Assembly: GCA_013414765.1 (NCBI GenBank)
Contig: CP058708.1
Location: forward strand, 3,591,553 to 3,655,552
Direction: 5' to 3'
Origin: Candidatus Accumulibacter cognatus
GTDB lineage: Bacteria; Pseudomonadota; Gammaproteobacteria; Burkholderiales; Rhodocyclaceae
Length of the DNA stretch: 64,000 nucleotides
Shown here: positions 17,837 to 32,179 of the stretch, one piece after another
Layout: each line of letters opens with the position of its first letter
Numbering within the stretch: position 1 is the stretch's first letter
Translations under genes and position numbers: made by a program
Notes under the pieces: model-generated
The model's database searches: none
Told to the model about the DNA's origin: nothing
What the model saw: only the letters and a program-made list of their open reading frames with translations

Positions 17837-19525
17837 CTATAAGTACGCTCGCAATGGCCGTGCAATCTGAAACAAGGCCATGTAATTCCTGAACTGTTCA
17901 GCGCGAAAGTAAAATAAAGTGGTCGGGTCCGAGGTGAACCACTTTAATCGGAGCAGCGTATTTTCAACGCTTTCCTGGGGAACAAGCCGGGCATTGCCAA
18001 GCGTCATCTCGGAGGGTGCCAAGTATTCTACAATAGGGTTAAGAATGGGGATGGAACATTTCAGGAAGTGCAGTGCACCGGTTGTTGGCATATCGTACAT
18101 CAAACAAAGATCACAACTCTCTGCATGCTGATCCATGGTTTCGTTGGCGTTTCTAGTCAACTCTGCAGCGGAAACTCCAATATCCCTCTCCAACAAGTTT
18201 ATAATCGAGTAACTCGGTTTGCAGCGTATTTTAAGGACGATGCCGTTCTGGTTGCACCAGGAAACGATCTGTCTTATTCCTTGCATGTAGGGTTGGTAGC
18301 GCGTGAAATAAAATCCATTGAGTGACAGGGAATTAAGCAGCAGAGAGATCGTCCTAATCTCGCCAACGATACTCGAGCTTCTGAAGGTTTCCGGATAAGC
18401 AATTTTAAAATTCAGTACGCTCTTGTGGTTGGCATCAAAAATTTCCTGGCCATGTATCGGATGACTGAGAACCGTGATGTTCCTGTATTTGAACTCGATG
18501 TCATTGACGCATTTGGAGTGGGGTAGAAGAATGACGGGCAGTGAGTGCTTCTGTGCAAAAGAAATGATCGGGCCATGAAATCCGGCATCGTGATCGGATA
18601 ACACTATTCTTGATGGTTTCGAGTTTTTGAAATACCTGGAAAGCTGGTAATAGGTGACCAGCTGCGCACAGTAAGTGTTGCTGATTTGTTGGGTTTGGCG
18701 CTGGCGGTAATTCGGTATGACCAGATGTGGCTGCAATATCCGGTCCAGTTTTTCAGCTAATTTACGGGAAAAATTATTTATTTTTGTGCGGATCTCTTCC
18801 GGTAAATTGGCGAGGGTACTCTCTAATTCGGTCAGTGCCAGGGTTTTAATTGCGGGTAACGGGATGTTGAAATTCTTTGCCTCGATATTGATCAGTGTTT
18901 TCCCGGTCGAAATCATTTCCTGGAAAAAATAATTGATATCATACCAGCATGTCGGTAAATGAATCAGTAGCTGTTCAAGTTCTTCATTCTGATTTCCTTC
19001 TGGTAACTCAGGGATCAGATGGCCGTCATCATCCTTGCTTCCATAGGTAAAACCTGAAAATTCGATGTCATTGGACTTCAGGTTCCACAAGAGCAAGATC
19101 GAGGGAATGAATGAATTGAAGTAATATGAGCCAGGGGTATCACAGATGAAGAGGTGTACCTTCGTTCCGGCTAGTTGGTTACCAAAATTCTCCCATAGTG
19201 CCGTGTACCACTTGAGGGTGATGAAAATATAATACAGATTCAGATGCTGCCATCCCTCTATGGATACCTCGGGGACAATATCTCTGACTTCGAGATCAAG
19301 AGTCCTCTCCAGGTCGAACGCAGCAGAGTGGGCACTGGCGTCCAGTTCATGATAGAGCGGGCAATTATCAAAAGGTGTATAAACGATGTTCCTCAGTCCG
19401 CTCGCCGAGATCGGGTCAACCAGTATCGGGTCGAATGTGTATACGGTATACGAGGACAGGTTTCTGGCGATTTGTAGGGCTGGGGGAATATCCGCAGCAT
19501 TGATAATTATGATCGAGTTTTCCAT
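17837..19525 (-). CDS. Unknown protein of the GT41 operon, possibly glycan-related
   Basis: 562 residues, not recognised. It begins MENSIIIINAADIPPALQIA, reminiscent of the first strand of a Rossmann-like fold. Near residue 310 comes IVLSDHDAGFHGPIISFAQ, then LPVILLPHSKC and a later CDLCLMYDMPTTGALHFL, the arrangement of a GT-B-like or polysaccharide-processing enzyme. No membrane segment or signal peptide is evident. It is visibly less GC-rich than its neighbours, with many AAA, AAT and ATT codons. It is the last gene of the operon and starts 18 bases after the previous stop. Its stop codon lies at the edge of the mobile-element island, inside the 10-bp duplication of the MITE, but the same TAG would exist without the insertion, so the gene is not truncated by it. 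Confidence 0.7.
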   Translation of the reverse strand: MENSIIIINAADIPPALQIARNLSSYTVYTFDPILVDPISASGLRNIVYTPFDNCPLYHELDASAHSAAFDLERTLDLEVRDIVPEVSIEGWQHLNLYYIFITLKWYTALWENFGNQLAGTKVHLFICDTPGSYYFNSFIPSILLLWNLKSNDIEFSGFTYGSKDDDGHLIPELPEGNQNEELEQLLIHLPTCWYDINYFFQEMISTGKTLINIEAKNFNIPLPAIKTLALTELESTLANLPEEIRTKINNFSRKLAEKLDRILQPHLVIPNYRQRQTQQISNTYCAQLVTYYQLSRYFKNSKPSRIVLSDHDAGFHGPIISFAQKHSLPVILLPHSKCVNDIEFKYRNITVLSHPIHGQEIFDANHKSVLNFKIAYPETFRSSSIVGEIRTISLLLNSLSLNGFYFTRYQPYMQGIRQIVSWCNQNGIVLKIRCKPSYSIINLLERDIGVSAAELTRNANETMDQHAESCDLCLMYDMPTTGALHFLKCSIPILNPIVEYLAPSEMTLGNARLVPQESVENTLLRLKWFTSDPTTLFYFRAEQFRNYMALFQIARPLRAYL

Positions 19526-19543
19526 CGCAAGATTCTTCTTCCC

Positions 19544-20395
19544 TCATTCCCGCAACTTGTCGCGCAACTGCGAGTACGCTTCCCTGTAATCGTGGAACCC
19601 CTGCTCCCTCATCGCGATTTTCAGAGCGTCGCTCAGCACGGCTTCGAACTTGAACTGATTCAGGCGGCTACCCGACCAGGCACAATCGAAGGTATTGTAA
19701 GCGCGGACACGCCACCTGGGATCGACCGTCAGCAATATGGATGCAATACGTTCCATCAGGAAGACTTTTCTCTGCACGGAGCCTGGGTAGGATGTTTCGA
19801 AAATCAGCAACTGTTTGAGCGCGCTGTCCTCTCCTTCGCAGATGGAAAATAACTGCTCGTTGAGACTGAGCCAGGCGCGCCAGAACGCGGGACGTGCGGC
19901 AAAGAAATTGCTGAAGATGATCTGCCGAGAATCCATGACCAGCGGCGCCAAGCCGATCGGCATGCCAACTGCCGCAAAGAAGGTTTCGCTGGCCGCGATA
20001 AAACCCGGCGAAAACAGTTCCTCCTGTTCGAATACATTGAGGAAAAAGGCCCCCATGTCAGGTTGCGGGCTGAATGAAACCACATCCATGTCTGTGCCGG
20101 CTGCCTGCACGAAATTTTTCACCTGGGCATGGCTCAGTCCAGTCTTCTCCTGGAAGCGCGGTGAGAAGAAACCATAATACGCATGCTCTTCGAGATCTTC
20201 ATCGATCAGGAATCTGCGAATCGGCCAATATTCACGCCAATCATTTCTGGGGCTATTGACATTGTCCAGGATCAGGTAACCCGGAGGGGCCTCAGCAAGG
20301 GTCTTTTCAGAGTAGGCAATGTGATAGAGATGGACCGGGTGCAATGCTGGATTCATTACCTGCTGCGTCGGGCCATTAGTTTTCCCGGTTTGCAT
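19544..20395 (-). CDS. Unknown protein between methyltransferase and 17837-19525 gene
   Basis: 283 residues, not recognised. Soluble-looking and rich in aromatic residues; segments such as HLYHIAYSEKTLAEAPPGYLILDN near the start and YYGFFSPRFQEKTGL near residue 75 suggest a compact enzyme or glycan-binding fold. Its ATG shares one base with the methyltransferase stop (TGATG), so the two are translationally coupled. The position in a GT41 operon suggests a role in modification or transfer of a glycan; this is context only. Confidence 0.7.
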   Translation of the reverse strand: MQTGKTNGPTQQVMNPALHPVHLYHIAYSEKTLAEAPPGYLILDNVNSPRNDWREYWPIRRFLIDEDLEEHAYYGFFSPRFQEKTGLSHAQVKNFVQAAGTDMDVVSFSPQPDMGAFFLNVFEQEELFSPGFIAASETFFAAVGMPIGLAPLVMDSRQIIFSNFFAARPAFWRAWLSLNEQLFSICEGEDSALKQLLIFETSYPGSVQRKVFLMERIASILLTVDPRWRVRAYNTFDCAWSGSRLNQFKFEAVLSDALKIAMREQGFHDYREAYSQLRDKLRE

Positions 20396-21081
20396 CAGCC
20401 GTCCGCTAGCGCCTTGACCACATATTGAAATGGGACTGCATCCTGTAGGGCCATCTCGGGATCGTTACCGGATGCACGTGCCATCTGCCGGATCGCTGCA
20501 GCCATTTCATCAGTAGGTTGATCGAGGAGACGGGCAATCATGTTGAGCACCTGGAATCCGTGCGAATTGAACAGATCGATAATGGTCAGGCGGGTAAGCC
20601 AGCGAATATGGGTACGATCAAACAGACCGGAGTCCTGATAGATGAACAGGCCGGCGTTAAGCCGGGACTGGACGCCCCAATATTGCGCATTCGGGATGCA
20701 GGCAATCACTTCGGTGCGGCTGCGCGCATTGGCCTTGATGCGCTCCAGCAGTTGCCATGGATCGTAAAGATGCTCCAAAGCGTCAGCAAATACCCAGCAG
20801 TCGGCATCACTCAGCTGGTGAAATGTTTCGGCAGATAAATATTCGACATTGCCATGGATCACCTCCGTGCAATGCTGCCTGGAGGCTTCGGCGTAGTCCG
20901 CATCGATTTCTATGCCCACATAGCGGCAGCCGGGATTGATGCCGCGATAGGCTCGCGCCAGAGCACCACTGCTGGAGCCCACTTCCACCACGCCTGTATA
21001 GTCGCTACGCATGAAGTTGAGAACATCCGGATTGTGAATTTGATTGAGCGGGGTTTGTCGCATTGCTGGTGCTGGATGCAC
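20395..21081 (-). CDS. Class I SAM-dependent methyltransferase
   Basis: 228 residues. The SAM-binding motif I is VVEVGSSSGALARAYRG (about residues 31-47), motif II IEIDADY, and the post-motif region DADCWVFADALEHLYDPW contains the DxLEH signature common in Methyltransf_11/23 enzymes. The C-terminal part (DLFNSHGFQVLNM) is also typical. It starts 30 bases after the GT41 gene and is coupled to the next gene. The substrate is unknown; sugar or protein methylation in flagellar glycosylation islands is a known theme. Confidence 0.88.
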   Translation of the reverse strand: MHPAPAMRQTPLNQIHNPDVLNFMRSDYTGVVEVGSSSGALARAYRGINPGCRYVGIEIDADYAEASRQHCTEVIHGNVEYLSAETFHQLSDADCWVFADALEHLYDPWQLLERIKANARSRTEVIACIPNAQYWGVQSRLNAGLFIYQDSGLFDRTHIRWLTRLTIIDLFNSHGFQVLNMIARLLDQPTDEMAAAIRQMARASGNDPEMALQDAVPFQYVVKALADG

Positions 21082-21111
21082 GGGGGTCCTTTCAAGAAGG
21101 TCAGATTTGCT

Positions 21112-22962
21112 TCACAGTGGCGATGAAGTTGTCGGGAGATGCATGGTCAATTGCAACAACCGGCTTTCCAGATTGCGTACGAACAAGTGAGTATCGAACA
21201 GCACTCCCTGAGTGCGCTCTCTGATCAGGTGTGCCCGCATCCGTTCGCATTCGGTTCGACGATGACCCAGGGCAACCGCCTTTTCTTCATAGTCACTGAG
21301 CTGGTAGGTAATCAGTTCCCCGAGATTGGCTGCGGTCAGCAGCGCGCCAGCCATACGGGACGCAAAGGTACGTCCACTCCGGGTCAGTACGGGCAGGCCC
21401 ATCCATAGGGCGTCGTTCGCAGTTGTGCCGGCATTGAATGGAAAGGTGTCAAGGAACAGATCCGCAATCTGGTAGCGGGCCAGATAGTTTTCAGGAGCAA
21501 CCCGCTCGGTGAAGATCAGGCGGGAGGGTTCAATGCCCTGATTGATGGCTTCCTGACGCAGGTTTGTTTCAGCCCAGGGATTGTCGGCCAGTAACCACAA
21601 CACGCTGCCGGACACACGGCGCAGGATGTTCATCCAGACGCTGAACATTTCTGGGGTGAACTTGAAGTTGTTATTGAATGAGCAGTACACAAAGCGGTCT
21701 TCCGGTAGCCCGCAGCTCGCCCGGCTAGGGGGGGTTCCCAGCGCGCGCTTGCGGTCGCTGACCTGATAGATGTCAGGCATATAGAGGGGCTTTTCGGAAT
21801 AGTAGCGTGCTTCCTCTTCGGGGATGAGGAAGCGGTCGGCAATGACATAGTCGATGAATGGGAGGCCGGTGGTGGCAGGCAGGCCGAGATAGGTGATCTG
21901 TATTGGGGCCGGTCGGTAGGCCAGCATGTTCATTCGGGCACCAGCAGTCTGGCCCTGCAGGTCCACCAGAATATCGATCTCGTGTTCCCGAATCAGGCAA
22001 GCCGCTTCCTCGTCGCCGAGTTGATCGATACGTTGGAAGTGATCCATGGCGGCAATCACCCGCTTGCGTACCTCCGAGCCATCTTCCGGACTCCAGCAAT
22101 ACGCATAGACCTCGAATTTCTCTCGGTCATGGGATTCGAACATCTCCACCATCAGCATCGCGACCGGATGCAGGCAGAAATCCGAGGAGCAGTAGCCGAT
22201 GCGGATTTTCCGGTGTCCGTAGCCTCCTGGCTTGGCGAGGGATGGCAGATCCTTGAGTACCTTCTTGTCCGCGTAGCGTCGCGCGGCGGCCAGTTGTACC
22301 GCAGGATCATCGGTCATCGCAAGCATGGCCAGGGCGGAGGTGGAATTCTCCATCAGTTCCGGGCTGACCTTGCCGGTGGGGCGATAAACTGGCCAACAGC
22401 ATTGTTTCATGCGCAGGAATACCCAGTGGTGGAGTACATCCGACTGGGTGGGATCGATCGACAGACTCCTGTCGAGATAGTCTGTGGCATCCCGATATTC
22501 CTTTTTGATCTCCAGTACCCGGCCAAGATTGTTCAGGGCAAGCAGCAGGAAGGGCTTGTATTCATCCGTGTCGGCGGGAACATTGCGTTCAACCCATAGC
22601 CACTCTTCTACCGCCTGGTCCAGAAAGCCCCGGCGCTCAAGGACCAGCCCAAGGTTGAGTCGAGGTTGAATGAAGCCAGGAGACAGGGCGATCGCCTGCC
22701 GGTAAGCCTCTTCCGAAGCCACCAGATCCCCGAGATTCGACAGCGTTGCGCCGAGGTTGAAGTACGCCGCATGGGCGTGGGTTGAAGGGGTTCTCTTGAG
22801 CCAGGTCTGGTAGAGGATCGCTGCCAGGGGCGCGCGCCGTTCCTGCTCCAGTTTGCTGCACTGGTCGATGAGTTGCAGCAGTTCGAGTTGCCCGTTCCAT
22901 GCCTGCATCAGCAGAGAAACAATTACATCGTCGCGCACTACCACTCCCCTCAAGGCTGCCAT
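21112..22962 (-). CDS. TPR-containing GT41 glycosyltransferase (O-GlcNAc-transferase/SPINDLY-like)
   Basis: Transfers a sugar from a nucleotide sugar to Ser/Thr of protein targets. The N-terminal third (about residues 30-200) has TPRs (AAYFNLGATLSNLGDLVASE, IQPRLNLGLVLERRGFLDQ) for substrate binding. The catalytic part begins with KIRIGYCSSDFCLHPV and contains DILVDLQGQTAGARMN, PIQITYLGLPATTG, the FVYCSFNNNFKFTPEMF block and the nucleotide-sugar site DTFPFNAGTTANDALWMG, all hallmarks of GT41. The ATG at 22962 has a poor ribosome site; a GTG at 22938 follows AGGGGAG and may be the real start. A TATAAT on the - strand at 22991-22996 could be its -10 box, without a clear -35. First gene of a four-gene operon. 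Confidence 0.92.
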   Translation of the reverse strand: MAALRGVVVRDDVIVSLLMQAWNGQLELLQLIDQCSKLEQERRAPLAAILYQTWLKRTPSTHAHAAYFNLGATLSNLGDLVASEEAYRQAIALSPGFIQPRLNLGLVLERRGFLDQAVEEWLWVERNVPADTDEYKPFLLLALNNLGRVLEIKKEYRDATDYLDRSLSIDPTQSDVLHHWVFLRMKQCCWPVYRPTGKVSPELMENSTSALAMLAMTDDPAVQLAAARRYADKKVLKDLPSLAKPGGYGHRKIRIGYCSSDFCLHPVAMLMVEMFESHDREKFEVYAYCWSPEDGSEVRKRVIAAMDHFQRIDQLGDEEAACLIREHEIDILVDLQGQTAGARMNMLAYRPAPIQITYLGLPATTGLPFIDYVIADRFLIPEEEARYYSEKPLYMPDIYQVSDRKRALGTPPSRASCGLPEDRFVYCSFNNNFKFTPEMFSVWMNILRRVSGSVLWLLADNPWAETNLRQEAINQGIEPSRLIFTERVAPENYLARYQIADLFLDTFPFNAGTTANDALWMGLPVLTRSGRTFASRMAGALLTAANLGELITYQLSDYEEKAVALGHRRTECERMRAHLIRERTQGVLFDTHLFVRNLESRLLQLTMHLPTTSSPL

Positions 22963-23171
22963 CCCGAATTCATGGTTACAACGAGCCTGGATTATATCCT
23001 GAAAACGGGCCTCGGCGATCTTTGCAGGGTAATCATAACTGATTGTAATAATTGAATAAGATCATCGGTTCAGAGGGTACGCTTGCTGCAGATCAGGCGA
23101 CAGACGGATGCTGCACGCACAGCTTCCGATCAATCGGCAGACTGTCCTGGATGGCATGAGACATCTTCAGC

Positions 23172-23206
23172 CAAAAAAGGAAGCGGGGCCGAAAAAGCCC
23201 CGCTGC
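23172..23206 (-). terminator. Intrinsic terminator after the repeat-protein gene
   Basis: On the - strand AGCGGGGC and GCCCCGCT form an 8-bp stem with a short T-rich loop, followed by TTCCTTTTTT. It lies 17 bases after the stop of the 23223-27245 gene and separates it from the GT41 operon on the same strand. Confidence 0.85.
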
Positions 23207-23222
23207 ATGGCTGAACCGCTGT

Positions 23223-26200
23223 TTAACTACCTGTCGCGAGCATGCCCTTGGTGATCGCATCCAGGCTTGGCGGATTGGTCAGCGAGTTGGTCGCCACCGT
23301 CTGTGAAGCCTGGGATGGACCGAACGGATTGCCGTTCGGATCGTATTGCTGCAACAAGGCCGCAATGCTTGCCTGCGGGGCGAGTTGAGGCAGGAGGCTG
23401 GTACCAAAAGCGTTCGGGTCGGGCGCTGCCTGTCCGGTGTTGAACGAGGAGATGGCCTGCAGCATGTTGCCCACATTCGCTCTGAGATCCGCCGCCGCCG
23501 CAATGGTAGGCGGCGCTGCCTGGATTGCGGAGTTCTTGTCGGTTGCGAACCAGACGTCGGCCATCTCGTGACTTGTCCCATCGGTGGTCTGGTAACTCGA
23601 AATCAGTCCGACGATATTGCCCGCATCGACCACCGCAGTTCTCGTCGCATTCAGGTCGAGTTGAACTATTTCCAGCGACTCGAGGGAACGTAGTTCTCCC
23701 GACTGGCTGATCCCGTCCGAATTGCCGTCTACCCAGACTGCCAGATCCGACCAATGATCGTCTGCCGAACTAATGACGCCGTCGGCATTGCTGTCGATTT
23801 CGCTCAGGGCGACATAGCCGTCTGCAGCCTTTTCGCCGTTGGCCAGCGTGACCGATGATCCGAACAATTCACCGCCGTCGTTGATGGTTCCGTCGCCATT
23901 GCGGTCCATGACCAGGAGGCCGTCACCGCTGGCAACCCAGCCGGTATGAATCTTGTCGCCGGTTGCCAACAGGTCGAACTGAACGCCCGAAGAAATGCTC
24001 TGCGATAGTTTGCCATCCTCGTTGAGATCAAGAATCAGGGGCGTCGAAGCGGAGTTGACCTGAGCCGTGGTCAGGGCGGCGAGTTGTGTGGTCGTCAGGA
24101 ACATCCCCTTGAGGGCATAGGTCTGAGCGGTGCTCATGGCGGCGAGCTGGCTGAGGGTCAGGACGGGAACCTGAGCGGCGGTGAGTGCGGCGAGCTGAGT
24201 GGTACCGAGTGCTGCGACATCGGCGGCTTCCATGGCCTTTACCTGGGCAGTGGTGAGGCCGCTGGCGATCTGGGTGACCGTGAGTGCGGCAACCTGCGCG
24301 GTGGTCAGAGCGACGATCTGGCTGGTTCGCAGAGCTGCGATATCGGCAGCTTCCATCGCTCTCACTTGGGCAGTGGTGAGGCCGCTGGCAATCTGACTGG
24401 CGGTGAGCGCGCCGACCTGAGTCGTGGTCAGCGCGACCACCTGAGCGGTGCCAAGGTTGGCGATCTGACTGCTGGCAAGGGCGGCAATCTGGCTGGTCTT
24501 GAGTACCGCGACATCAGTCGCCTCGATCGCCTGCAACTGGGTGGTGGTGAGGCCGTTGACGAGCTGATTGGTGGTCAGTGCGCGGACCTGCGCCGTGGTC
24601 AGTGCGACGACCTGGGCGGTGTCGAGACTGGCCACCTGGGAGGTAGTGAGGGCGGCGATCTGCGACGTGCCGATGCCGGCGATCTGACTAGTGCGCAGGA
24701 CGATGGCGATCTGACTGGTGGTGAGCGCGGCTACCTGGCTGGTCTTGAATGCCGAGACTTCGGTGGCATCCATGGTGCTGAGCTGGTTGGTGGTGAGGCC
24801 GCCTGTGATCTGGGTGACCGTGAGTGCGCCGATCTGTGAAGAAGTCAGCGCCGCGAATTGGGAGGTGCCGAGGTTGGCGATCTGAGTAGTGCTCAGAGCG
24901 GCGATCTGGCTGCTCTTGAGTGCTGCGACATCAGTCGCCTCGATCGCTTGCAGTTGGGTGCTGGTGAGGCCGTTGACAAGTTGATTGGTGGTCAGTGCGC
25001 GGACCTGCGCCGTGGTCAGCGCGACGATCTGGGCGGTGCCGAGACTGGCGACTTGGGCGGTGGTGAGGGCGGCAACCTGCGACGTGCCGATCCCGGCGAT
25101 CTGGCTGCTGCCAAGGACGATCGCGATCTGGCTGCTTGTGAGCGCGACCAGCTGGCTGGTCTTGAGTGCCGCGACATCGCGGGTTTCCAGGGCCGTCAGC
25201 TGGTTGGTGGTAAGGCCGTTGATGAGCTGGTTGGTGGTCAGGGCGCGGACCTGCGACGAGGTCAGCGCGACGATCTGGCTGGTGCCGAGATTGGCGATCT
25301 GAGTGGTGGTCAGGGCGGCGACCTGACTGGTCTTGAGGGCCGCGACATCGGCGGTTTCCATGGCCGCCAGCTGCGCGGTGGTGAGGCCATTGACGAGCTG
25401 ATTGGAGGTGAATGCGGGAACCTGCGCCGAGGTCAGGGCGGCGATCTGGGCGGTGCCGAGAGCGGCGACCTGGGTGGTGGTCAGGGCGGCGAGCTGGGCG
25501 GTTCTGATCGCAGCGATCTGGCTGCTGCCAAACACGATGGCGATCTGGCTGCTGGTGAGCGCGGCCACCTGGACAGTCTTGAGTGCCGCCACATCACGGG
25601 TTTCCAGGACCGTCAGCTGGTTGGTGGTGAGGCCGTTGATGAGCTGATTGGTGGTGAGCGCGGCGACCTGGGACGAGGTCAGCGCGACGATCTGGCTGGT
25701 GCCGAGATTGGCGATCTGAGTGGTGGTCAGGGCGGCGACCTGGCTGGTCTTGAGGGCCGCGACATCGGCGGTTTCCATGGCCGCCAGCTGCGCGGTGGTG
25801 AGGCCATTGACGAGCTGATTGGAGGTGAATGCGGGAACCTGCGCCGAGGTCAGGGCGGCGATCTGGGCGGTGCCGAGAGCGGCGACCTGGGTGGTGGTCA
25901 GGGCGGCGAGCTGGGCGGTTCTGATCGCAGCGATCTGGCTGCTGCCAAACACGATGGCGATCTGGCTGCTGGTGAGCGCGGCCACCTGGACAGTCTTGAG
26001 TGCCGCCACATCACGGGTTTCCAGGACCGTCAGCTGGTTGGTGGTGAGGCCGTTGATGAGCTGATTGGTGGTGAGCGCGGCGACCTGCGACGAGGTCAGC
26101 GCGACGATCTGGCTGGTGCCGAGATTGGCGATCTGAGTGGTGGTCAGGGCGGCGACCTGGCTGGTCTTGAGTGCCGCGACATCGGCGGTTTCCATGGCCG

Positions 26201-27245
26201 CCAGTTGGGCGGTGGTGAGGCCATTGACGAGCTGATTGGTGGTCAGGGCGCGGGCCTGCACTGTGGTCAGCGCGGCGATCTGGGCGGCGCCAAGCGTGGC
26301 GACCTGGGCGGTGGTCAGGGCGGCGACCTGCGACGTTCTGATCGCAGCGATCTGGCTGCTGCCAAACACGATGGCGATCTGGCTGCTGGTGAGCGCGGCC
26401 ACCTGGACAGTCTTGAGTGCCGCCACATCACGGGTTTCCAGGACCGTCAGCTGGTTGGTGGTGAGGCCGTTGATGAGCTGGTTGGTGGTGAGCGCGGCGA
26501 CCTGGGACGAGGTCAGCGCGACGATCTGGCTGGTGCCGAGATTGGCGATCTGAGTGGTGCTGAGGGCGGCGACCTGGCTGGTCTTGAGGGCCGCGACATC
26601 GGCGGTTTCCATGGCCGCCAGCTGCGCGGTGGTGAGGCCATTGACGAGCTGATTGGTGGTCAGGGCGCGGGCCTGCACTGTGGTCAGCGCGGCGATCTGG
26701 GCGGCGCCAAGCGTGGCGACCTGGGCGGTGGTCAGGGCGGCGACCTGCGACGTTCTGATTGCAGCGATCTGGCTGCTGCCAAGGACGATGGCGATCTGGC
26801 TACTGGTGAGCGCGGCCACCTGGACAGTCTTGAGTGCCGCGACATCACGGGTTTCCAGGACCGTCAGCTGGTTGGTGGTGAGGCCGTTGATGAGCTGATT
26901 GGTGGTGAGCGCGGCGACCTGCGACGAGGTCAGCGCGACGATCTGGCTGGTGCCGAGATTGGCGATCTGAGTGGTGGTCAGGGCGGCGACCTGGCTGGTC
27001 TTGAGTGCCGCGACATCGGTGGTTTCCATGGCCGCCAGCTGCGCGGTGGTGAGGCCATTGACGAGCTGATCGGTGGTGAATGCGGCGACCTGCGCCGGGG
27101 TAAGCGCCACGATCTGGGTGGTGCTAAGGCCGGCGGCGATCTGGTTGGTGGAGAGTTCCCGGATCTCGCTGGTCGTCAGTGCGGCGATTTGTCCGGCATC
27201 GAGAGTACTGATCTGCGTGGTCGTAAGGGACGTAATGATTGACAT
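23223..27245 (-). CDS. Giant Thr/Ser-rich tandem-repeat protein with Ca-binding-like C-terminus
   Basis: 1340 residues. Residues 1 to about 1060 are made of an approximately 11-residue repeat of the form LTTxQIAAL/LTSSQVAAL, arranged in 139-residue super-repeats. The C-terminal 270 residues differ: LILDLNEDGKLSQ, VMDRNGDGTINDGGELFGS, SEIDSNADGVISSADD and VWVDGNSDGISQSGEL are DxDxDG-type calcium loops, as in RTX/haem-utilisation-type surface proteins. There is no N-terminal signal peptide or membrane segment, so export would need type I or flagellar secretion. The gene follows a near-consensus sigma-28 promoter and a leader hairpin, with GAGGA before the ATG, and ends at a good terminator, so it is a single-gene late-flagellar-regulon transcript. 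Repeats of this kind may form a solenoid. Function unknown. Confidence 0.85.
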   Translation of the reverse strand: MSIITSLTTTQISTLDAGQIAALTTSEIRELSTNQIAAGLSTTQIVALTPAQVAAFTTDQLVNGLTTAQLAAMETTDVAALKTSQVAALTTTQIANLGTSQIVALTSSQVAALTTNQLINGLTTNQLTVLETRDVAALKTVQVAALTSSQIAIVLGSSQIAAIRTSQVAALTTAQVATLGAAQIAALTTVQARALTTNQLVNGLTTAQLAAMETADVAALKTSQVAALSTTQIANLGTSQIVALTSSQVAALTTNQLINGLTTNQLTVLETRDVAALKTVQVAALTSSQIAIVFGSSQIAAIRTSQVAALTTAQVATLGAAQIAALTTVQARALTTNQLVNGLTTAQLAAMETADVAALKTSQVAALTTTQIANLGTSQIVALTSSQVAALTTNQLINGLTTNQLTVLETRDVAALKTVQVAALTSSQIAIVFGSSQIAAIRTAQLAALTTTQVAALGTAQIAALTSAQVPAFTSNQLVNGLTTAQLAAMETADVAALKTSQVAALTTTQIANLGTSQIVALTSSQVAALTTNQLINGLTTNQLTVLETRDVAALKTVQVAALTSSQIAIVFGSSQIAAIRTAQLAALTTTQVAALGTAQIAALTSAQVPAFTSNQLVNGLTTAQLAAMETADVAALKTSQVAALTTTQIANLGTSQIVALTSSQVRALTTNQLINGLTTNQLTALETRDVAALKTSQLVALTSSQIAIVLGSSQIAGIGTSQVAALTTAQVASLGTAQIVALTTAQVRALTTNQLVNGLTSTQLQAIEATDVAALKSSQIAALSTTQIANLGTSQFAALTSSQIGALTVTQITGGLTTNQLSTMDATEVSAFKTSQVAALTTSQIAIVLRTSQIAGIGTSQIAALTTSQVASLDTAQVVALTTAQVRALTTNQLVNGLTTTQLQAIEATDVAVLKTSQIAALASSQIANLGTAQVVALTTTQVGALTASQIASGLTTAQVRAMEAADIAALRTSQIVALTTAQVAALTVTQIASGLTTAQVKAMEAADVAALGTTQLAALTAAQVPVLTLSQLAAMSTAQTYALKGMFLTTTQLAALTTAQVNSASTPLILDLNEDGKLSQSISSGVQFDLLATGDKIHTGWVASGDGLLVMDRNGDGTINDGGELFGSSVTLANGEKAADGYVALSEIDSNADGVISSADDHWSDLAVWVDGNSDGISQSGELRSLESLEIVQLDLNATRTAVVDAGNIVGLISSYQTTDGTSHEMADVWFATDKNSAIQAAPPTIAAAADLRANVGNMLQAISSFNTGQAAPDPNAFGTSLLPQLAPQASIAALLQQYDPNGNPFGPSQASQTVATNSLTNPPSLDAITKGMLATGS
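24060..27200 (-). repeat. Coding tandem-repeat array, 417-bp period
   Basis: The same landmark (GATGAGCTG on the + strand) recurs at 25221, 25638, 26055, 26472 and 26889, exactly 417 bases apart, equal to 139 codons. Units from about 25200 to 27060 are close to identical; those from 24060 to 25200 are older and more diverged. Within each unit a short 33-base (11-codon) repeat is visible. All of it lies inside the 1340-residue protein gene and no unit changes the frame. Confidence 0.93.
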
Positions 27246-27259
27246 CTATTCATCCTCGG

Positions 27260-27286
27260 AGACTTCTTTTGCCCTGAAAGAAGTCT
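27260..27286 (-). promoter_or_regulatory. Perfect 10-bp hairpin in the repeat-protein leader
   Basis: AGACTTCTTT and AAAGAAGTCT form a perfect 10-bp stem with a 7-base loop in the 5' leader. It ends a few bases before the GAGGA ribosome site of the repeat-protein gene. There is no T run after it, so it is not a terminator; it could stabilise the mRNA or tune translation. Confidence 0.6.
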
Positions 27287-27365
27287 CGAAAGTAAATTAA
27301 ATTATTGCGCAAGGGCGTTTTTTGGGATGCCGGTCGAGCACATCGAAACGCGTCAGACGATTAGA

Positions 27366-27392
27366 TCATCGGCTTGCGTCAGGAAAACTTTA
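27366..27392 (-). promoter_or_regulatory. Sigma-28 (FliA) promoter of the repeat-protein gene
   Basis: On the - strand the -35 box TAAAGTTT (27385-27392) is followed after exactly 11 bases by the -10 box GCCGATGA (27366-27373); the consensus is TAAAGTTT-N11-GCCGATAA. The leader to the ATG at 27245 is about 115 bases. The remaining part of the 315-base gap (27393-27560) between this promoter and fliK holds no gene I recognise. Confidence 0.88.
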
Positions 27393-27560: not shown

Positions 27561-29177
27561 TCATTGAGCGGGCTGGATACTCGCTGGTGGCGCGGTAATT
27601 CCCAATGACGCGAGGTCCAGGCCGGCCTGTTCGAACTGGCTGCGCAGGGCTGCGACCTCGCTGCGCAATCGTGTGCGGGTTCCGGCGTCGGGGGCGACCA
27701 CGGCCAGCGTGATCTGCTTGCCCTGGATGTGCAGCCGGGCATCGACCTCGCCGAGCTGGGGAAGTGTTAGACGCAGCCGTGTCTGCCACTTTTCGCTGTT
27801 CTCGCCGGAATCAGCAGCGCCGTCACCCCTGCGTTCACGGTGGTTAATTTCGTTGGCAATCTCCCACCGGATTTGCTGACCGGGCCAGATTTGTCCCTGC
27901 CATGAAAAATTCTGGGTCGCAAAGGCTTCGAGTTGCTGCTGGACGATCGCCTGCGCCTGTGGGGCGACGGGCTGGGAAGGCAGTACTGATGAGGGAGGCT
28001 GAAGAGTTTGGGATGGTTGGGTTTGGGAAGATTGGGCCGACTGGCTGCTAGTAGGGTTCAGATCCACTGGCCTGGCCTGTGCCTGGGTGGTTTCCACGGC
28101 ACTGCCTGACATGGCCGGTGGTTCGGCAGCCTGGGGGAACTCCTGCAGGGTCACGACTGGGGTAGCCGGAAGCCGGGGCGCCGTGACTGGCGGTTCGGCC
28201 AACACTGGAGCCGGTCTTCCCTCTGGCACTTGCAGCAGTGATGCTGACTGGTGGGTGGCGGGACTTGGGTCTACTGGCCTGGTCTGTGCTTGCGTGGCCT
28301 CCACGGCGGGGTCTGTCATGCCGTGGGGTTCTCCTGCCAGGGACGATGCCTGTGCAGCCGTGATCTGGGGAGCCGCCTCTAGTGGTGTGGCCACCAGGGA
28401 AGCCGATTTCCCCTGCACTTCCTGCAATCCGGGTGCCGGCGCGCTGATGGAGAGGTTCAGGTTCAGGTCCACCGGCCTGACCTGTTCTGATGTGATCCCG
28501 ACGGATGCGTCTGGCATGGTGAGAGGCTCGGCAACCGGGGATGATGCCTGCGTGGTCGCAACTTGGGAAGCTGTGAGCTGTTTCGCTGCGACCAGGGGAG
28601 CCAGCTTCCCTTGTGGCTCCTGCAGCAATTGCGCCTTGCTGTAGCGGCCCCCAAGCCATTCCGCCTGATGCGATTCGTAAAACATGCCGCTCTTGCTGAT
28701 CGCCTCCTTGAGTAGCGGCAGCAGCTCCTGGGCGTTAGCCGGCGGGCTGGCGGCGATCGGCTGATTGCCGTTGAGCGGCAGCGCCACGGGGCCGGCGTTG
28801 CGTGTGCCGCCAAGCAGATCGCCGATCAATTGCCCGGTGCGGCTCAGACTGGTGGTGGCAGCTTCGATACCACCCCGACCGCCGTCGGCTCCTGCTTTTG
28901 CCAGCACCGCCAGAGTCAGCTTGCCGTTGCTCTCGGCGACCTCCAGCTCGATCGCGTCGCCGCTCCTGGCGGCAAAGGGCAAGGCAAGGGTGACGCTGCG
29001 CTGGTTAATCAGCGCACGGTACGAGCCGTTAGGCAGCAGCGACTGGATTTCAGCCAACAAGCGCTGTCCGACGACGAGGCCGGACAGTTTGTCGGTAATC
29101 TCCTGTCCCGGTGGTGTCGGCCGCGGCGCGAGATCGGCAGTCGGCTGCAGGCGGTTGGCGATGTCGGGGCGGATCAT
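27561..29177 (-). CDS. fliK: Flagellar hook-length control protein FliK, paralogue 1
   Basis: 538 residues. The C-terminal Flg_hook domain (about residues 410-525) holds WQGQIWPGQQIRWEIANEI, TRLRLTLPQLGEVDARLHI and LRSEVAALRSQFEQAGLDL, the export-switch fold of FliK. The N-terminus (LAEIQSLLPNGSYRALINQR, ALPFAARSGDAIELEV) resembles the N-terminal part of the long FliK variants of betaproteobacteria. The middle is Pro/Gln/Thr-rich with about three degenerate repeats of some 80 residues that end in RPVDLN/RPVDPS. It is the last gene of the fliC-flaG-fliD-fliS-fliT side and is preceded by a repeat element. A second, different FliK is encoded at 38599-40101. Confidence 0.85.
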   Translation of the reverse strand: MIRPDIANRLQPTADLAPRPTPPGQEITDKLSGLVVGQRLLAEIQSLLPNGSYRALINQRSVTLALPFAARSGDAIELEVAESNGKLTLAVLAKAGADGGRGGIEAATTSLSRTGQLIGDLLGGTRNAGPVALPLNGNQPIAASPPANAQELLPLLKEAISKSGMFYESHQAEWLGGRYSKAQLLQEPQGKLAPLVAAKQLTASQVATTQASSPVAEPLTMPDASVGITSEQVRPVDLNLNLSISAPAPGLQEVQGKSASLVATPLEAAPQITAAQASSLAGEPHGMTDPAVEATQAQTRPVDPSPATHQSASLLQVPEGRPAPVLAEPPVTAPRLPATPVVTLQEFPQAAEPPAMSGSAVETTQAQARPVDLNPTSSQSAQSSQTQPSQTLQPPSSVLPSQPVAPQAQAIVQQQLEAFATQNFSWQGQIWPGQQIRWEIANEINHRERRGDGAADSGENSEKWQTRLRLTLPQLGEVDARLHIQGKQITLAVVAPDAGTRTRLRSEVAALRSQFEQAGLDLASLGITAPPASIQPAQ

Positions 29178-29316: not shown

Positions 29317-29595
29317 TCAAACCTCTCGCAGGACGACGCGCAGTTCGTTCAGGCGGGCTTCGACCAGCGGGCGGATGCGCGCATCGCAGCGCTGGCAATT
29401 CTCGATCAGCGTGCGCGCACGCACGGCCGCCGCAGGTGCGAGCTGGCTTGTCAGGTTGTTTGGCAGGCTGTCGGTCAGGGCTCGGCGGTCAGCCTCGTAC
29501 CTGGCCAGCAAGTCCCAGTCACTGTTCTCGGCGGCACTGAGCATCGCTTCGGCAAGCGCCAGCAGGTGCTCGAGCGCGCTCAGGGAGGAACTCAT
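29317..29595 (-). CDS. fliT: FliT-like flagellar export chaperone
   Basis: 92 residues, mostly helical, with the FliT pattern LEHLLALAEAMLSAAENSDWDLLARYEADRRALTDSLP in the first half and a conserved ENCQRCDARIRPLVEARL near the C-terminus. FliT binds the filament cap protein FliD and keeps it export-competent. The start overlaps the fliS stop by four bases, giving the usual fliD-fliS-fliT order on the - strand. Small size makes the call context-dependent, but order and pattern agree. Confidence 0.85.
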   Translation of the reverse strand: MSSSLSALEHLLALAEAMLSAAENSDWDLLARYEADRRALTDSLPNNLTSQLAPAAAVRARTLIENCQRCDARIRPLVEARLNELRVVLREV

Positions 29596-30005
29596 GCAAC
29601 GGCTCTTTGTCGCGCTTGGGGTGAGATTTCTCGCCAGGCGCCATGAATCTCTTCGAGCAGGGCCGCGACTTCTTCGAGCGCGCGCAAATCGTTGTCGAGG
29701 TTGGCGCGCAGCAGTCGCAGCACCATGTAGTCGTAAAGGGCATAGAGGCGCTCGGCGAGTTCGCCACCCTGTTCGAGGTCGAGGCTGACCTTGAGGCCGT
29801 TGCCGATGATGTCGATGGCCTTGGAAATGGCTTCCCCCTTGGCGGCGATCTGTTGTTGCTGCATGGCAGCGCGGGCCTTGCCGATAGCGGTCTGGGCGCC
29901 GGCGAAGAGCAGCAGAATCAGCCGGTACGGGTCGGCCACCTCGATGGCTGCATCGATACCTACTTTCTGATAGGCTGAAATCGCGTTGCGTGCATTGCCG
30001 AACAT
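29592..30005 (-). CDS. fliS: Flagellin export chaperone FliS
   Basis: 137 residues. The N-terminal AISAYQKVGIDAAIEVADPYRLILLLFAGA and the later YDYMVLRLLRANLDNDLRALEEV are the conserved FliS four-helix bundle signatures. FliS binds the disordered C-terminus of flagellin in the cytoplasm and delivers it to the export gate. It lies 20 bases after fliD and overlaps fliT. Length is normal (about 130). Confidence 0.95.
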   Translation of the reverse strand: MFGNARNAISAYQKVGIDAAIEVADPYRLILLLFAGAQTAIGKARAAMQQQQIAAKGEAISKAIDIIGNGLKVSLDLEQGGELAERLYALYDYMVLRLLRANLDNDLRALEEVAALLEEIHGAWREISPQARQRAVA

Positions 30006-30025: not shown

Positions 30026-31765
30026 TTAACTATTACTGTACTTGGGCAGATTGGCGAGTTGCTGCGTCAGGAAAGTGCTGGTCGTGGTCATTCCTGCGAT
30101 GAGCGTGTCGAGAGAGGTGAATTGCTTGCGATAGCGCGCTTCGATATCGATCAGCCGATTCGATATCACGGTCGATTGCTTGCCGAGGTTGACGATCGAG
30201 GAATTGAGTCCGTCGCTGCGGGCGGCAATCAGGCCACCGCTACCGACCAGTCCATCAGCAGCGCTCTTGACCGCGCTGCCGTAGGCGGCGACCAGGTTGG
30301 CGACGCCGTTGAAATCCTTGCCGATGGCCGTGCTCAGTTTGGCGGCATCGACGGTCAGCGTGCCGTCCTTCTGCAGGCTGACGCCGATGTCCGACAGACG
30401 TTGCAGGCTGGCACCGGTGAGCGCGGAGGGAATCTCGCCAAGTGCGGTGCGGAAGGAATTCTGTGCTGTCCGCAGCGTGCTGTCACCGTTGAGCGTACCA
30501 GCTTTCTTGCTGGTGGCATCGTAACTGCCGAGATTCCTGGCGGTACTCTGGAAATCGTTGATCGCCTTGACCAGCGCATTGACGCCGGTGGTCAGGCTGG
30601 TATTGTCCTTGCTGATCGTCAGCGTGGTGCTGAGCGAGGTCGCGGGCGCTTCCGGGCCTTTCAACAGATTCAGGGTGATGCCGTCGATCGCCGTCGTCAC
30701 GGTGTTGGTGGCGGACGACACCGCAACGCCATTCAGCGTGAAGGTGGCGCCGAGTGCGGCGTGCGTCTGGGTAAAGGTATCTGCCGGCTCGACCGGATCC
30801 GAGCGGGTGTTGGCTGGGGCGGCGCTCCCCGACAATTCGATGAACTGGTTACTACCGCTGGCGTTGCTGGTCAACACGAGCTGCTTACCTGAGGTGCCGT
30901 CTATGACCTCTGCCGTCACGCCTGCGCTCGCGCTGTTGATGGCGTCGCGCATCATTTCCGGGGTGGAGTCGGCGGCGATCGTGACATCGGTGGTCTTGTT
31001 GATATTGGAACCGTCGCTGTCACCGAGTTTGATGGTCAGCGTGCCGCTAACCGGCAGGGTGCCGCCGACCCCGGAAAATACGCCGATGTCCGTGCTGACG
31101 CTGTGGTGCCTGGCCTCTGGAGCGACGAAGGACAGGCCAGTACTTCCAGAAATCTTGATGACCTGGTTGCTGCCGGCGGTGTCGCTGGTCAACAGGAGTT
31201 GCTTGCCATCGGTCCCATTGATCACCAGCGCCGCAACGCCAGCGTTGGCGGCGTTGATCGCGTCGCGGATGGCCTCAGGCGTGGAGTCATCCGCGATGGT
31301 GATGTCGGTCGTCTTGCTCACCGTGACGCCGTCCGCCGTGCCGAGTGCAAGGGTCAGCGTACCGCCGTCCGAGAGGGTTCCGTTGGTTCCCGAGAAAGGC
31401 GAACTGGCTCCGCCCGGCGTGGTGATGCTGTGCTGAGTGGCGAGTTGGGTCACTGCCAGACTATAGGTGCCGGCTACCGCGCTCGATGTCGTGGTCGCCG
31501 AAGCGATCGTCGCGTCGGCCACCGACGTTCTCAACACCGTGAATTTCTGCGCTGCCGTCGTGCCACTGACGGGCACCAGATTCCCTGCCGCCGTTTGCAT
31601 GGCCGAAATCGTCCCCTGCAGCGATCCGAGCGCCGATATCTTGGCCTGAAAGCCGGCCTGTTTCTGTGCCAGAACGGTCAGCGGTCGTTTTTCCACCGCC
31701 ATCAACTGGCTGACGATGCTGTTCACATCAAGGTTCGAACCGAGGCCCGGTGACGAGACCGTCAT
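30026..31765 (-). CDS. fliD: Filament cap protein FliD (HAP2) with duplicated central domain
   Basis: 579 residues, longer than the typical 450-480. The N-terminal D0/D1 part is SPGLGSNLDVNSIVSQLMAVE. The C-terminal part includes the region LVAAYGSAVKSAADGLVG and ends in a helix with RLIDIEARYRKQFTSLDTLI. Between them two homologous Flagellin_IN-type domains follow each other: one around TTDITIADDSTPEAIRDAIN, the other around TTDVTIAADSTPEMMRDAIN, each continuing into a GTDGKQLLLTS/GTSGKQLVLTS block. FliD caps the growing filament and guides flagellin insertion. The duplication enlarges the exposed domain. It starts 48 bases after flaG. Confidence 0.95.
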   Translation of the reverse strand: MTVSSPGLGSNLDVNSIVSQLMAVEKRPLTVLAQKQAGFQAKISALGSLQGTISAMQTAAGNLVPVSGTTAAQKFTVLRTSVADATIASATTTSSAVAGTYSLAVTQLATQHSITTPGGASSPFSGTNGTLSDGGTLTLALGTADGVTVSKTTDITIADDSTPEAIRDAINAANAGVAALVINGTDGKQLLLTSDTAGSNQVIKISGSTGLSFVAPEARHHSVSTDIGVFSGVGGTLPVSGTLTIKLGDSDGSNINKTTDVTIAADSTPEMMRDAINSASAGVTAEVIDGTSGKQLVLTSNASGSNQFIELSGSAAPANTRSDPVEPADTFTQTHAALGATFTLNGVAVSSATNTVTTAIDGITLNLLKGPEAPATSLSTTLTISKDNTSLTTGVNALVKAINDFQSTARNLGSYDATSKKAGTLNGDSTLRTAQNSFRTALGEIPSALTGASLQRLSDIGVSLQKDGTLTVDAAKLSTAIGKDFNGVANLVAAYGSAVKSAADGLVGSGGLIAARSDGLNSSIVNLGKQSTVISNRLIDIEARYRKQFTSLDTLIAGMTTTSTFLTQQLANLPKYSNS

Positions 31766-31813: not shown

Positions 31814-32179
31814 TCAGGCCGACTGTTTGACAAATAATCCCTTGATGCTGTCGAGAGCCTTGGCGATGGCCAGCATTTCCTGCGAAGGCACCTGGCGAAT
31901 CACTTCCTTGGTGGCGCTGTCGATGATCTTGACCACCAATTGCCCGGAATCTCCGTCCACACTGAACTCCAGATTGTCGTTGATCGGCTTGACGAAATCG
32001 CGGACGCTCTGGGTGGCTGCTTCAAGCTGTGCCCGGTCGGGGGGCTGTACCGGCAGCAGGGTCAGCGTGGGGTCAATGGTTCTGCTTTCGCCCGTTGTTT
32101 TGATGTCACGTGCCGCAGAGCTGACAACAACCAGATTGCTCTGGGGAGGTAGTGAAGCGGCAGTGGATGGAATGTTCAT
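31814..32179 (-). CDS. flaG: FlaG family flagellar protein
   Basis: 121 residues. The C-terminal FlaG signature is clear: NLEFSVDGDSGQLVVKIID followed by TKEVIRQVPSQEMLAIAKAL. The N-terminal half is variable and low-complexity. FlaG proteins influence filament length and are usually encoded between fliC and fliD, as here. A GGAGT ribosome site precedes the ATG. It is 87 bases from fliC, so it could share the fliC transcript or have its own promoter. Confidence 0.93.
   Translation of the reverse strand: MNIPSTAASLPPQSNLVVVSSAARDIKTTGESRTIDPTLTLLPVQPPDRAQLEAATQSVRDFVKPINDNLEFSVDGDSGQLVVKIIDSATKEVIRQVPSQEMLAIAKALDSIKGLFVKQSA

Follow-up and report, generated by a model that had tools for sequence, protein, structure and literature searches.

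Accumulibacter is known as a phosphate remover in sewage treatment. The window analysed here, a stretch of 64,000 nucleotides from Candidatus Accumulibacter cognatus (contig CP058708.1), contains a gene for a 1,340-residue repeat protein, which lies between a block of flagellar genes on one side and an operon with a GT41-type glycosyltransferase gene on the other (table 1). The initial annotation of this DNA had described the promoter, the repeats, the calcium-type loops and the gene order, and this overall observation was confirmed in the sequence: family matches reproduced the order fliK-fliT-fliS-fliD-flaG-fliC next to the repeat gene, and the operon indeed comprises a GT41 enzyme, a methyltransferase and two uncharacterized proteins.

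Table 1. Features of the repeat-protein locus (positions within the window).
Feature	Position	Strand	Basis or remark
P0005, 562 aa, without Pfam family	17837..19525	-	distant relatives in L064, L084
P0004, 283 aa, without Pfam family	19544..20395	-	relatives in 6/78 repeat-protein loci
SAM-dependent methyltransferase, 228 aa, GTG start	20395..21081	-	PF13489/PF08242/PF08241
TPR-GT41 glycosyltransferase P0002, OGT-like, 616 aa	21112..22962	-	PF13844 E 1e-87
ALTTAQ-repeat protein, 1,340 aa	23223..27245	-	ORF call and Pfam
Low-confidence tail, residues 1241-1340, ending ...KGMLATGS	23226..23525	-	
FrpC self-processing-module-like Ca domain, residues 1068-1237	23535..24044	-	
Repeat region, residues 1-1064, 8-aa units, 417-nt higher-order repeats	24054..27245	-	
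Sigma-28 (FliA) type promoter TAAAGTTT-N11-GCCGATGA, 120 nt before ATG	27366..27392	-	
fliK	27561..29177	-	PF02120
fliT	29317..29595	-	PF05400
fliS	29592..30005	-	TIGR00208, PF02561
fliD	30026..31765	-	PF02465/PF07195
flaG	31814..32179	-	PF03646
fliC (flagellin), start set at MPQIINTN	32266..34065	-	PF00669/PF00700

The LTTxQIAAL-type repeats described initially were borne out by the open reading frame and by a match to the ALTTAQ repeat (E 8e-209, 675 bits against a cut-off of 26.4, 36 tandem stretches), which by sequence makes the protein a member of family PF20080. Our own pattern count gave 128 units with a usual spacing of 8 residues, position 3 being Ser or Thr in 87-90% of the 8-residue units; the pattern restricted positions 2 and 3 to certain residues, and freeing both left the figures nearly unchanged. 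The repeat region contains 272 Ser/Thr in total. Short helices arranged as a helical screw are predicted for it in a model running from residue 890 onward, and residues 19-123 match the sequence of HeliScrew4 (PDB 9zem; E 9e-14). HeliScrew4 and PF20080 ALTTAQ represent the same repeat family as our protein, but HeliScrew4 mostly has Pro at position 3, where natural ALTTAQ repeats have Ser/Thr. As for the earlier proposal that the Thr/Ser repeats are a sugar acceptor, the repeats stood, but it had been overlooked that a Pfam model already exists and that part of the Thr is probably helix-capping: since unit position 2 falls at the expected helix N-cap, the Ser/Thr richness would be partly structural. 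We found no study of the fibre, and literature searches on ALTTAQ, HeliScrew and PF20080 yielded no paper on these as a repeat family. The tail, with an ending resembled by those of several relatives, is a candidate C-terminal export signal. Antisense open reading frames across the repeats (e.g. 24858-27242 on the plus strand) were taken as repeat artefacts from frame-finding.

The DxDxDG loops, initially read as calcium-binding, sit in a domain homologous to the self-processing module (SPM) of FrpC (Foldseek E 5e-15, TM-score 0.82 over the target), and the alignment retains all four EF-hand-like loops, the first with one Asp to Asn change, which is consistent with Ca binding. This homology might also suggest an RTX protein with FrpC-like clip-and-link activity, i.e. 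self-cleavage plus Asp-Lys cross-links. The FrpC SPM cuts at Asp-Pro, however, whereas the Accumulibacter domain, standing near the C-terminus behind a long repeat array, starts with Thr-Pro in place of the scissile Asp-Pro and has Ser at the position aligned to FrpC D478 (reference numbering and roles of D414, D478 and D579 according to the available parts of PMC7078468). Ser or Thr precedes the invariant Pro in 38/38 rows of the alignment and, among 60 junctions located with a pattern, in 56 (the other four being Thr-Pro in L077 and unreadable in L060, twice, and L091). With Asp-Pro replaced by Ser/Thr-Pro, clip-and-link is not expected, and we regard this reading, ruled out as an activity of the SPM, as extremely improbable for the protein as a whole.

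P0002 is, judging from its PF13844 match and N-terminal TPRs, a GT41 O-GlcNAc-transferase-like enzyme. It aligns with human OGT and XcOGT and keeps the His and Lys corresponding to OGT H498 and K842; it lacks the His found in the HTT stretch of OGT. Pfam searches of P0004 and P0005 gave zero families above cut-off. P0004 is possibly a GT-A type glycosyltransferase: its model found nothing better than E 0.38 in the PDB, and the fold search gave three viral-protein matches below 0.001, none of named function, with named glycosyltransferases from E 0.002 upward. P0005 (44% GC over positions 18000-18999) is 25-26% identical to its relatives in L064 and L084. Values of dN/dS range from 0.06 to 0.18, with 0.18 over the C-terminal 451 codons of the repeat protein (against A. 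vicinus), 0.11 for P0002, 0.06 for the methyltransferase, 0.17 for P0004 and 0.16 for P0005.

The promoter, initially called near-consensus, differs by 1 mismatch from the E. coli sigma-28 consensus. On both strands of the 64 kb it is the only site with up to 3 mismatches at a spacing of 10-12, and five Markov-1 windows contained zero sites with up to 3 mismatches at spacing 11; fliC of the same locus has a sigma-28-like box with 4 mismatches, 104 nt before its ATG. A. contiguus (L092) shares the repeat-gene box, and another Accumulibacter (L099) has one with 2 mismatches. With a FliA-type box upstream and a fliA gene in the genome (G000:C1:4225178, 271.7 bits), the repeat gene is by sequence a putative sigma-28 regulon gene.

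Boxes upstream of the relatives' repeat genes back this late-flagellar promoter type. Of 50 homologous starts, 15, from about 9 lineages, have a box with up to 3 mismatches in the 300 nt upstream, whereas shuffles predict 0.025 boxed starts and a control set of 506 other genes gave 4, all of them flagellar. The scan left out 5'-cut genes, starts less than 150 nt from a contig end and genes masked by an antisense open reading frame (e.g. L042-L044), and includes doubtful starts in L055, L082 and L112; the control genes are mechanical open reading frames, each read from its first start codon. Eight Pseudomonas have in common TAATGTTT-N11-GTCGCTAA, with a variable spacer and in one case TAAGGTTT (rows L046 and L110 were excluded as internal mis-hits); if sigma-28 reads such genes, their transcripts should begin immediately past the GTCGCTAA or GCCGTATA box. 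Not every homologue has a good box: the best one has at least 4 mismatches in 35 of the 50 starts; Oxalobacteraceae, alphaproteobacteria and several validation genomes have a weak one or none; and 2 of 10 validation starts have up to 3 mismatches and one has 4. Flagellin boxes of the same genomes, where readable (L202, L203, L207 and L208 are without a readable start), were no nearer to the consensus than the repeat-gene boxes, except in Thiobaca (2 mismatches versus 3 for the repeat gene). Some of the 15 boxed repeat genes belong to Pelomonas, Aquabacterium and Gallionella; the flagellin genes read there have 6-8 mismatches, and the consensus may therefore not describe the sigma-28 sites of these bacteria. 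FliA was found in 45 of 49 searched host genomes versus 216 of 370 in the class sample; together with GT41 genes in many loci, this means that homologues do not consistently occur without flagella and GT41, a pattern that the initial annotation had named as speaking against its proposal.

That annotation had also called for a search of related genomes for the repeat protein, the sigma-28 box and GT41, each of which recurs in part of the relatives. The pairing with GT41 was backed by 25 of 59 testable loci, in which a GT41 gene follows the Ca domain on the same strand at a distance of less than 2 kb. Most of these genes belong to a single dedicated clade (97/82 in a tree of 58 of the 63 GT41 rows, which leaves out the duplicates L155-L157 and the short rows L076 and L100). 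No GT41 was found within this distance in the other 34 loci, and none anywhere in the locus in 41 of 78, many of these loci being cut. Environmental hosts with both the repeat gene and a GT41 include Propionivibrio dicarboxylicus and Pseudomonas laurylsulfativorans, the latter also with a linked ABC gene. Among 61 genomes, P0002 relatives of at least 77% occur in repeat-protein-positive Accumulibacter only, the best match elsewhere being 43%. Pseudaminic acid as the obvious donor was not supported by the relatives' loci, two of which have CDP-glucose pathway genes and three others PseC-like aminotransferases below cut-off. N-glycosylation of the repeats was ruled out, as their 1,064 residues are free of N-x-S/T sequons; the Ca domain has one and the tail none.

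A serious alternative to the repeats as acceptor is that P0002 is mainly a flagellin O-glycosyltransferase like Caulobacter FlmG, with the repeat gene as an operon or regulon neighbour. FlmG, too, is a cytoplasmic O-glycosyltransferase in a flagellar context, and combines a GT-B domain with a flagellin-binding TPR domain at the N-terminus (according to the available parts of PMC7591256). All eight examined Accumulibacter without the repeat gene have a GT41 frame (31-36% to P0002) on the same strand within about 1.5 kb after fliK, a GT41 follows fliK in at least 13 of 24 such Accumulibacter, and the only two GT41 matches of G019 are two halves of a P0002 orthologue. Flagellin may thus be an acceptor, given this different GT41 behind fliK in some Accumulibacter that lack the repeat gene. 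FlmG modifies flagellins, however, whereas P0002 tracks the repeat protein: its orthologues are present in 4 of 28 Accumulibacter genomes, exactly the carriers, and its clade is tied to repeat-protein loci of Pseudomonas, Geobacteraceae and Dechloromonas, with no flagellin gene found in the stretch. We therefore consider flagellin as the main acceptor unlikely, though by no means negligibly so.

The repeat protein could also be a late flagellar export substrate that coats or sheathes the filament, as the sigma-28 box, the flanking filament genes and the lack of an N-terminal signal sequence discernible by eye might suggest. A flagellar association, as claimed initially, held for the locus itself with its flagellar block and box, but in the relatives flagellar structural genes are present in just 10 of 78 loci and were not found in 68 (receptor or CheY-like matches alone, in L052, L073, L090 and L102, were not scored). 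This exceeds the roughly 2.4% per locus expected from a hand estimate based on the E. coli layout (binomial P about 1e-4 for 9 lineages in 78, a rough value for non-independent loci, several from one genome), but a flagellar location as a general rule was rejected. Concerning the export route that had been inferred earlier, the export genes repeatedly seen next to the relatives belong to type I secretion (T1SS): T1SS-type ABC genes are found in 20 of 78 loci (threshold 150 bits), including distant ABC relatives of about 30% identity in L075, L081, L085 and L105. Together with relatives of 2,000-5,000 aa, very large for flagellar substrates, this makes a filament coat quite improbable. The own genome has an OEP-ABC-HlyD set whose ABC protein shares 67% identity with that of Massilia; this set lies about 82 kb away, next to an RTX protease that may be its substrate. 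A Pfam search at 0.001 found no TPS or filamentous-haemagglutinin domain in the repeat protein. If, conversely, this were an ordinary large T1SS adhesin, the box and flagellar neighbourhood in Accumulibacter would be incidental, in line with the missing flagellar linkage in most relatives and the patchy occurrence of the box. The excess of boxed starts over a control in which all boxed genes were flagellar, and the greater frequency of FliA among the host genomes, argue against such coincidence, which we hold to be distinctly improbable.

Overall, we lean slightly towards a sigma-28-controlled, T1SS-exported, Ca-folded helical-screw fibre that is O-glycosylated by its own GT41, and we infer its glycosylation, acceptor site, export and extracellular role as follows. 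The gene would encode a secreted giant fibre made when the cell makes flagella, with sigma-28 transcribing it from the box upstream. The cytoplasmic TPR-GT41 enzyme would add sugars to repeat Ser/Thr, most likely at position 3 of the 8-residue unit, and the sugar-bearing chain, unfolded at low Ca, would exit via a type I secretion system. Outside, the four EF-hand-like loops would bind Ca and the chain would fold, the repeats forming an almost uncharged screw of short helices which the sugars would keep soluble and sticky. The most likely role would be surface contact by motile cells, either as adhesion or by bridging between flagella, cells and surfaces, similar to EtpA though with a different architecture.

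EtpC and Haemophilus HMW1C are members of the GT41 family, and magnetotactic bacteria have a glycosylated Ca-dependent protein layer around their flagella, a likeness by description alone that we take as a lead. EtpA of enterotoxigenic E. coli is, according to the available parts of PMC11100705 and PMC2877744, a large secreted repeat adhesin that is glycosylated by EtpC and binds flagella. The likeness of the EtpA/EtpC and HMW1/HMW1C pairs to our locus would lie in a large secreted repeat adhesin beside a GT41-family enzyme by which it is glycosylated. EtpA and HMW1, however, use two-partner secretion and carry N-linked hexoses, and EtpA is a beta-helix, whereas the repeat protein is predicted to form short-helix screws without N-x-S/T sequons, its GT41 carries TPRs and is of the OGT/SPY-like kind, some of the loci have linked T1SS genes, and the promoter is of the sigma-28 type.

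A more far-reaching version, which we put forward tentatively as possible though rather doubtful, is that of a widely scattered, previously undescribed motility module, in which, through sigma-28, the assembly of flagella is coupled to a giant helical-screw glycoprotein with GT41 sugars at up to about 115 Ser/Thr in an 8-residue period, T1SS-secreted, Ca-locked and decorating or bridging flagella and surfaces, and which displaced the usual flagellar-locus GT41 in Accumulibacter. If so, the late flagellar regulons of several bacterial groups would hold a giant glycosylated fibre together with its own OGT-like enzyme. The 8-residue acceptor repeat would then allow the choice of repetitive acceptors by OGT-like enzymes to be tested directly, as would become possible also for the switch of motile cells to contact. 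For Accumulibacter itself, this would concern the way in which free cells become part of flocs and granules.

Re-examination of the window sequence confirmed what the initial annotation had observed, i.e. a Thr/Ser-rich repeat protein with DxDxDG loops behind a near-consensus σ28 promoter and next to a GT41 operon, and its central idea of a glycosylated, flagellum-associated or secreted fibre became stronger after tests on relatives; glycosylation, export route and function of the protein are what we infer here.

Features of the window discussed in the text
Feature	Position	Strand	Remarks
IS66-family transposase gene	13044-14618	minus	524 aa
IS66-family transposase gene	16043-17617	plus	524 aa
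P0004 (same operon as P0002)	19544-20395	minus	283 aa
P0002 (TPR-GT41 glycosyltransferase)	21112-22962	minus	
ALTTAQ-repeat protein	23223-27245	minus	1,340 aa
σ28-type box TAAAGTTT-N11-GCCGATGA	27366-27392		1 mismatch against the E. coli σ28 consensus
Betaproteobacterial tmRNA	48844-49147		

Residues 1-1064 of the repeat protein comprise 128 units by our own pattern count, usually spaced 8 aa apart, which a Pfam search assigns in 36 stretches to the known family PF20080 (ALTTAQ_rpt); our literature search found no paper on this family. A higher-order repeat of 139 aa is mirrored in antisense ORF starts every 417 nt. Residues 1069-1237 match the self-processing module of FrpC (PDB 6sjw, E 1e-32). 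An AlphaFold2 model of residues 890-1340 (38-row alignment, mean pLDDT 79) shows short helices, mostly 5-7 residues long, that recur with a period of about 8 residues and are followed by the Ca domain and a low-confidence tail; Foldseek matches it to 6sjw (E 5e-15) and 6sjx (E 1e-13), and the repeats also to HeliScrew4 (9zem, E 9e-14). Whereas FrpC cleaves itself at D414-P415 (PMC7078468), the repeat-protein family has Ser or Thr before Pro, namely in 38 of 38 rows of the alignment that includes the start of the Ca domain and in 56 of 60 pattern-found junctions, the remaining four being Thr-Pro in L077 and unreadable in L060 (two) and L091. The position of FrpC D478 is also Ser, and all four EF-hand-like loops are retained, the first with one Asp to Asn change. 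We expect Ca to drive folding once the protein is outside the cell, and no clip-and-link. Several divergent ALTTAQ genes per genome, encoding up to 3,116 aa, occur in G349 and G416 (L180-L187), where neither tblastn nor pattern found an FrpC-like domain.

A type I secretion (T1SS)-type ABC gene lies in 20 of 78 loci, with OEP-HlyD-ABC convergent to the repeat gene in Pseudomonas and ABC-HlyD immediately behind it in Massilia and Thiobaca. The own genome (5.17 Mb in one contig) carries an OEP-ABC-HlyD set at 3530920, 82 kb from the repeat gene, whose ABC protein shares 67% identity with its Massilia counterpart, the next-best match being at 36%. Together with this full set, an adjoining M10 RTX protease gene and, close by, a YcgR flagellar brake gene occupy genome positions 3524639-3535221 (L152:3140-13722).

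A search of relatives for co-occurrence of the repeat protein with a FliA (σ28) box and GT41, as proposed by the initial annotation, gave the following: a box with up to 3 mismatches within 300 nt upstream of 15 of 50 homologous gene starts (shuffles expect 0.025), a same-strand GT41 catalytic domain starting at most 2 kb after the Ca domain in 25 of the 59 loci that extend 2.5 kb or more past that domain, and FliA (TIGR02479 above cut-off) in 45 of 49 host genomes picked by us. FliA was present in 216 of 370 genomes of an even class sample with completeness ≥90% (Fisher P 1e-6), a rough comparison as the hosts lie partly outside that class and carry no completeness filter.

Scored against the E. 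coli σ28 consensus, no site in the window other than the box at the repeat gene has 3 mismatches or fewer, both strands included, and five Markov-1 windows contained none at spacing 11. Such a box precedes just four of 506 other, mechanically called ORFs of the same loci: two encode flagellin (L058, L099), one a flagellin-domain (FlgL-like) protein (L069), and one is flhB (L078). Five of the 15 starts are from Pseudomonas, two from Accumulibacter and two, with near-identical boxes, from Rubrivivax/Roseateles, while the remaining six are single loci, so the box occurs in about nine lineages; beyond these, spacing-12 boxes are found in L069 (TAAAGTTT-N12-GCCGATAG) and L182 (TAAAGTTT-N12-GCCGATAA). 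Eight Pseudomonas keep the blocks TAATGTTT (in one of them TAAGGTTT) and GTCGCTAA, separated by an 11-nt spacer that varies, with further conserved blocks upstream. Counting against the σ28 reading, 35 of the 50 starts show at least 4 mismatches, and in validation genomes only 2 of 10 starts have up to 3 and 1 of 10 has 4. Flagellin genes of the same genomes served as yardstick. In Propionivibrio, fliC (TAAAGTTT-N11-GCCGTGAG) and the repeat gene (TAAAGTTT-N11-GCCGTATA) both have the box 88 nt before the start; fliC has 4 mismatches in the window itself, 4-5 in Pseudomonas and 2 in Thiobaca (versus 3 for the repeat gene there). A further point against is that in Pelomonas, Aquabacterium and Gallionella the flagellin genes read carry 6-8 mismatches; for those groups, then, the E. 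coli consensus may be a poor fit. Tandem second copies mostly lack the box, as expected for a position within an operon. Two near-alike ALTTAQ genes on separate contigs of G424 (L178, L179) differ, one having a 3-mismatch box and the other none. Flagellar structural genes are present in 10 of 78 loci (L058, L065, L069, L072, L076, L078, L092, L094, L099, L101) and also adjoin the repeat gene in G035; flagellar linkage is thus recurrent, not the rule.

GT41 occurs anywhere in 37 of 78 loci. A tree built from 58 GT41 domains gathers most of the linked ones, 23 of 27, in one clade (97/82), whose four additional members likewise stem from loci or genomes with the repeat protein; the other four linked domains fall into a second clade (100/99) of 11 members, every one from repeat-protein loci. 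P0002 resembles human OGT, XcOGT and SPINDLY, and weakly HMW1C (E 1e-4). Among 61 relatives searched, matches of at least 77% are confined to the repeat-protein-positive Accumulibacter (the own genome G000 and G012, G019 and G026); the carrier G035 has one at 51%. Of the remaining genomes, 27 have a match at E ≤1e-60, none of them above 43%, and 29 lack any match that good. The repeat region (1,064 residues) offers 272 Ser/Thr, 68 charged residues and no N-x-S/T sequon. Ser or Thr occupies unit position 3 at a frequency of 90% both in the 128 units of this protein and in a pool of 13,527 (89% and 87%, respectively, with pattern positions 2-4 unconstrained), and position 2, which precedes each predicted helix, at 55-67%. 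In HeliScrew4 position 3 is mostly Pro, so a hydroxyl there seems dispensable for the fold, and the position 3 Ser/Thr would be the likely glycan acceptor. Some loci have sugar genes close by, namely for CDP-glucose pathway enzymes in L055 and L057 and for aminotransferases in L066, L068 and L099. P0004, whose model (pLDDT 75) weakly resembles GT-A glycosyltransferases, is possibly one itself; this conserved family without a Pfam model stands beside ALTTAQ proteins in 6 of 78 loci (48-91% identity; relatives in L040, L063, L079, L104 and L105).

P0002 may, additionally or mainly, modify flagellin, like FlmG of Caulobacter (PMC7591256). The result that points this way, and against the repeats as acceptor, is that Accumulibacter without the repeat gene have another GT41 after fliK: in at least 13 of 24 such genomes, and in 8 of 8 fetched ones as a same-strand frame within about 1.5 kb, 31-36% identical to P0002. 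These frames (L217-L224; about 500-2,700 aa, in L220 one of 2,669 aa with three GT41 domains) are unlike P0002 and are candidate flagellin glycosyltransferases. In the own genome and G012, where the contig is whole, the slot is filled by the repeat protein and P0002; G019 has, among the matches listed, no GT41 other than its P0002 orthologue. Caulobacter vibrioides gave the sole ALTTAQ match among 14 control genomes and is one of two controls with a GT41 match.

Hard by the operon end, the two IS66-family transposase genes are inverted, score identically and lie about 1.4 kb apart. Candidatus Accumulibacter species are the closest relatives with a name: best-segment identity to the repeat protein is 93% in A. 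vicinus (L036) and A. contiguus (L092). Over the partner genes GC falls to 44-58% (about 57-67% around), and the repeat family occurs in 4 of 28 Accumulibacter and 8 of 370 class genomes (the own genome counted; two of the eight weak), a drop and a patchiness that suggest horizontal movement. All five genes show dN/dS of 0.06-0.18 in comparison with A. vicinus, the value of the repeat protein covering its last 451 codons, and thus the set is maintained.
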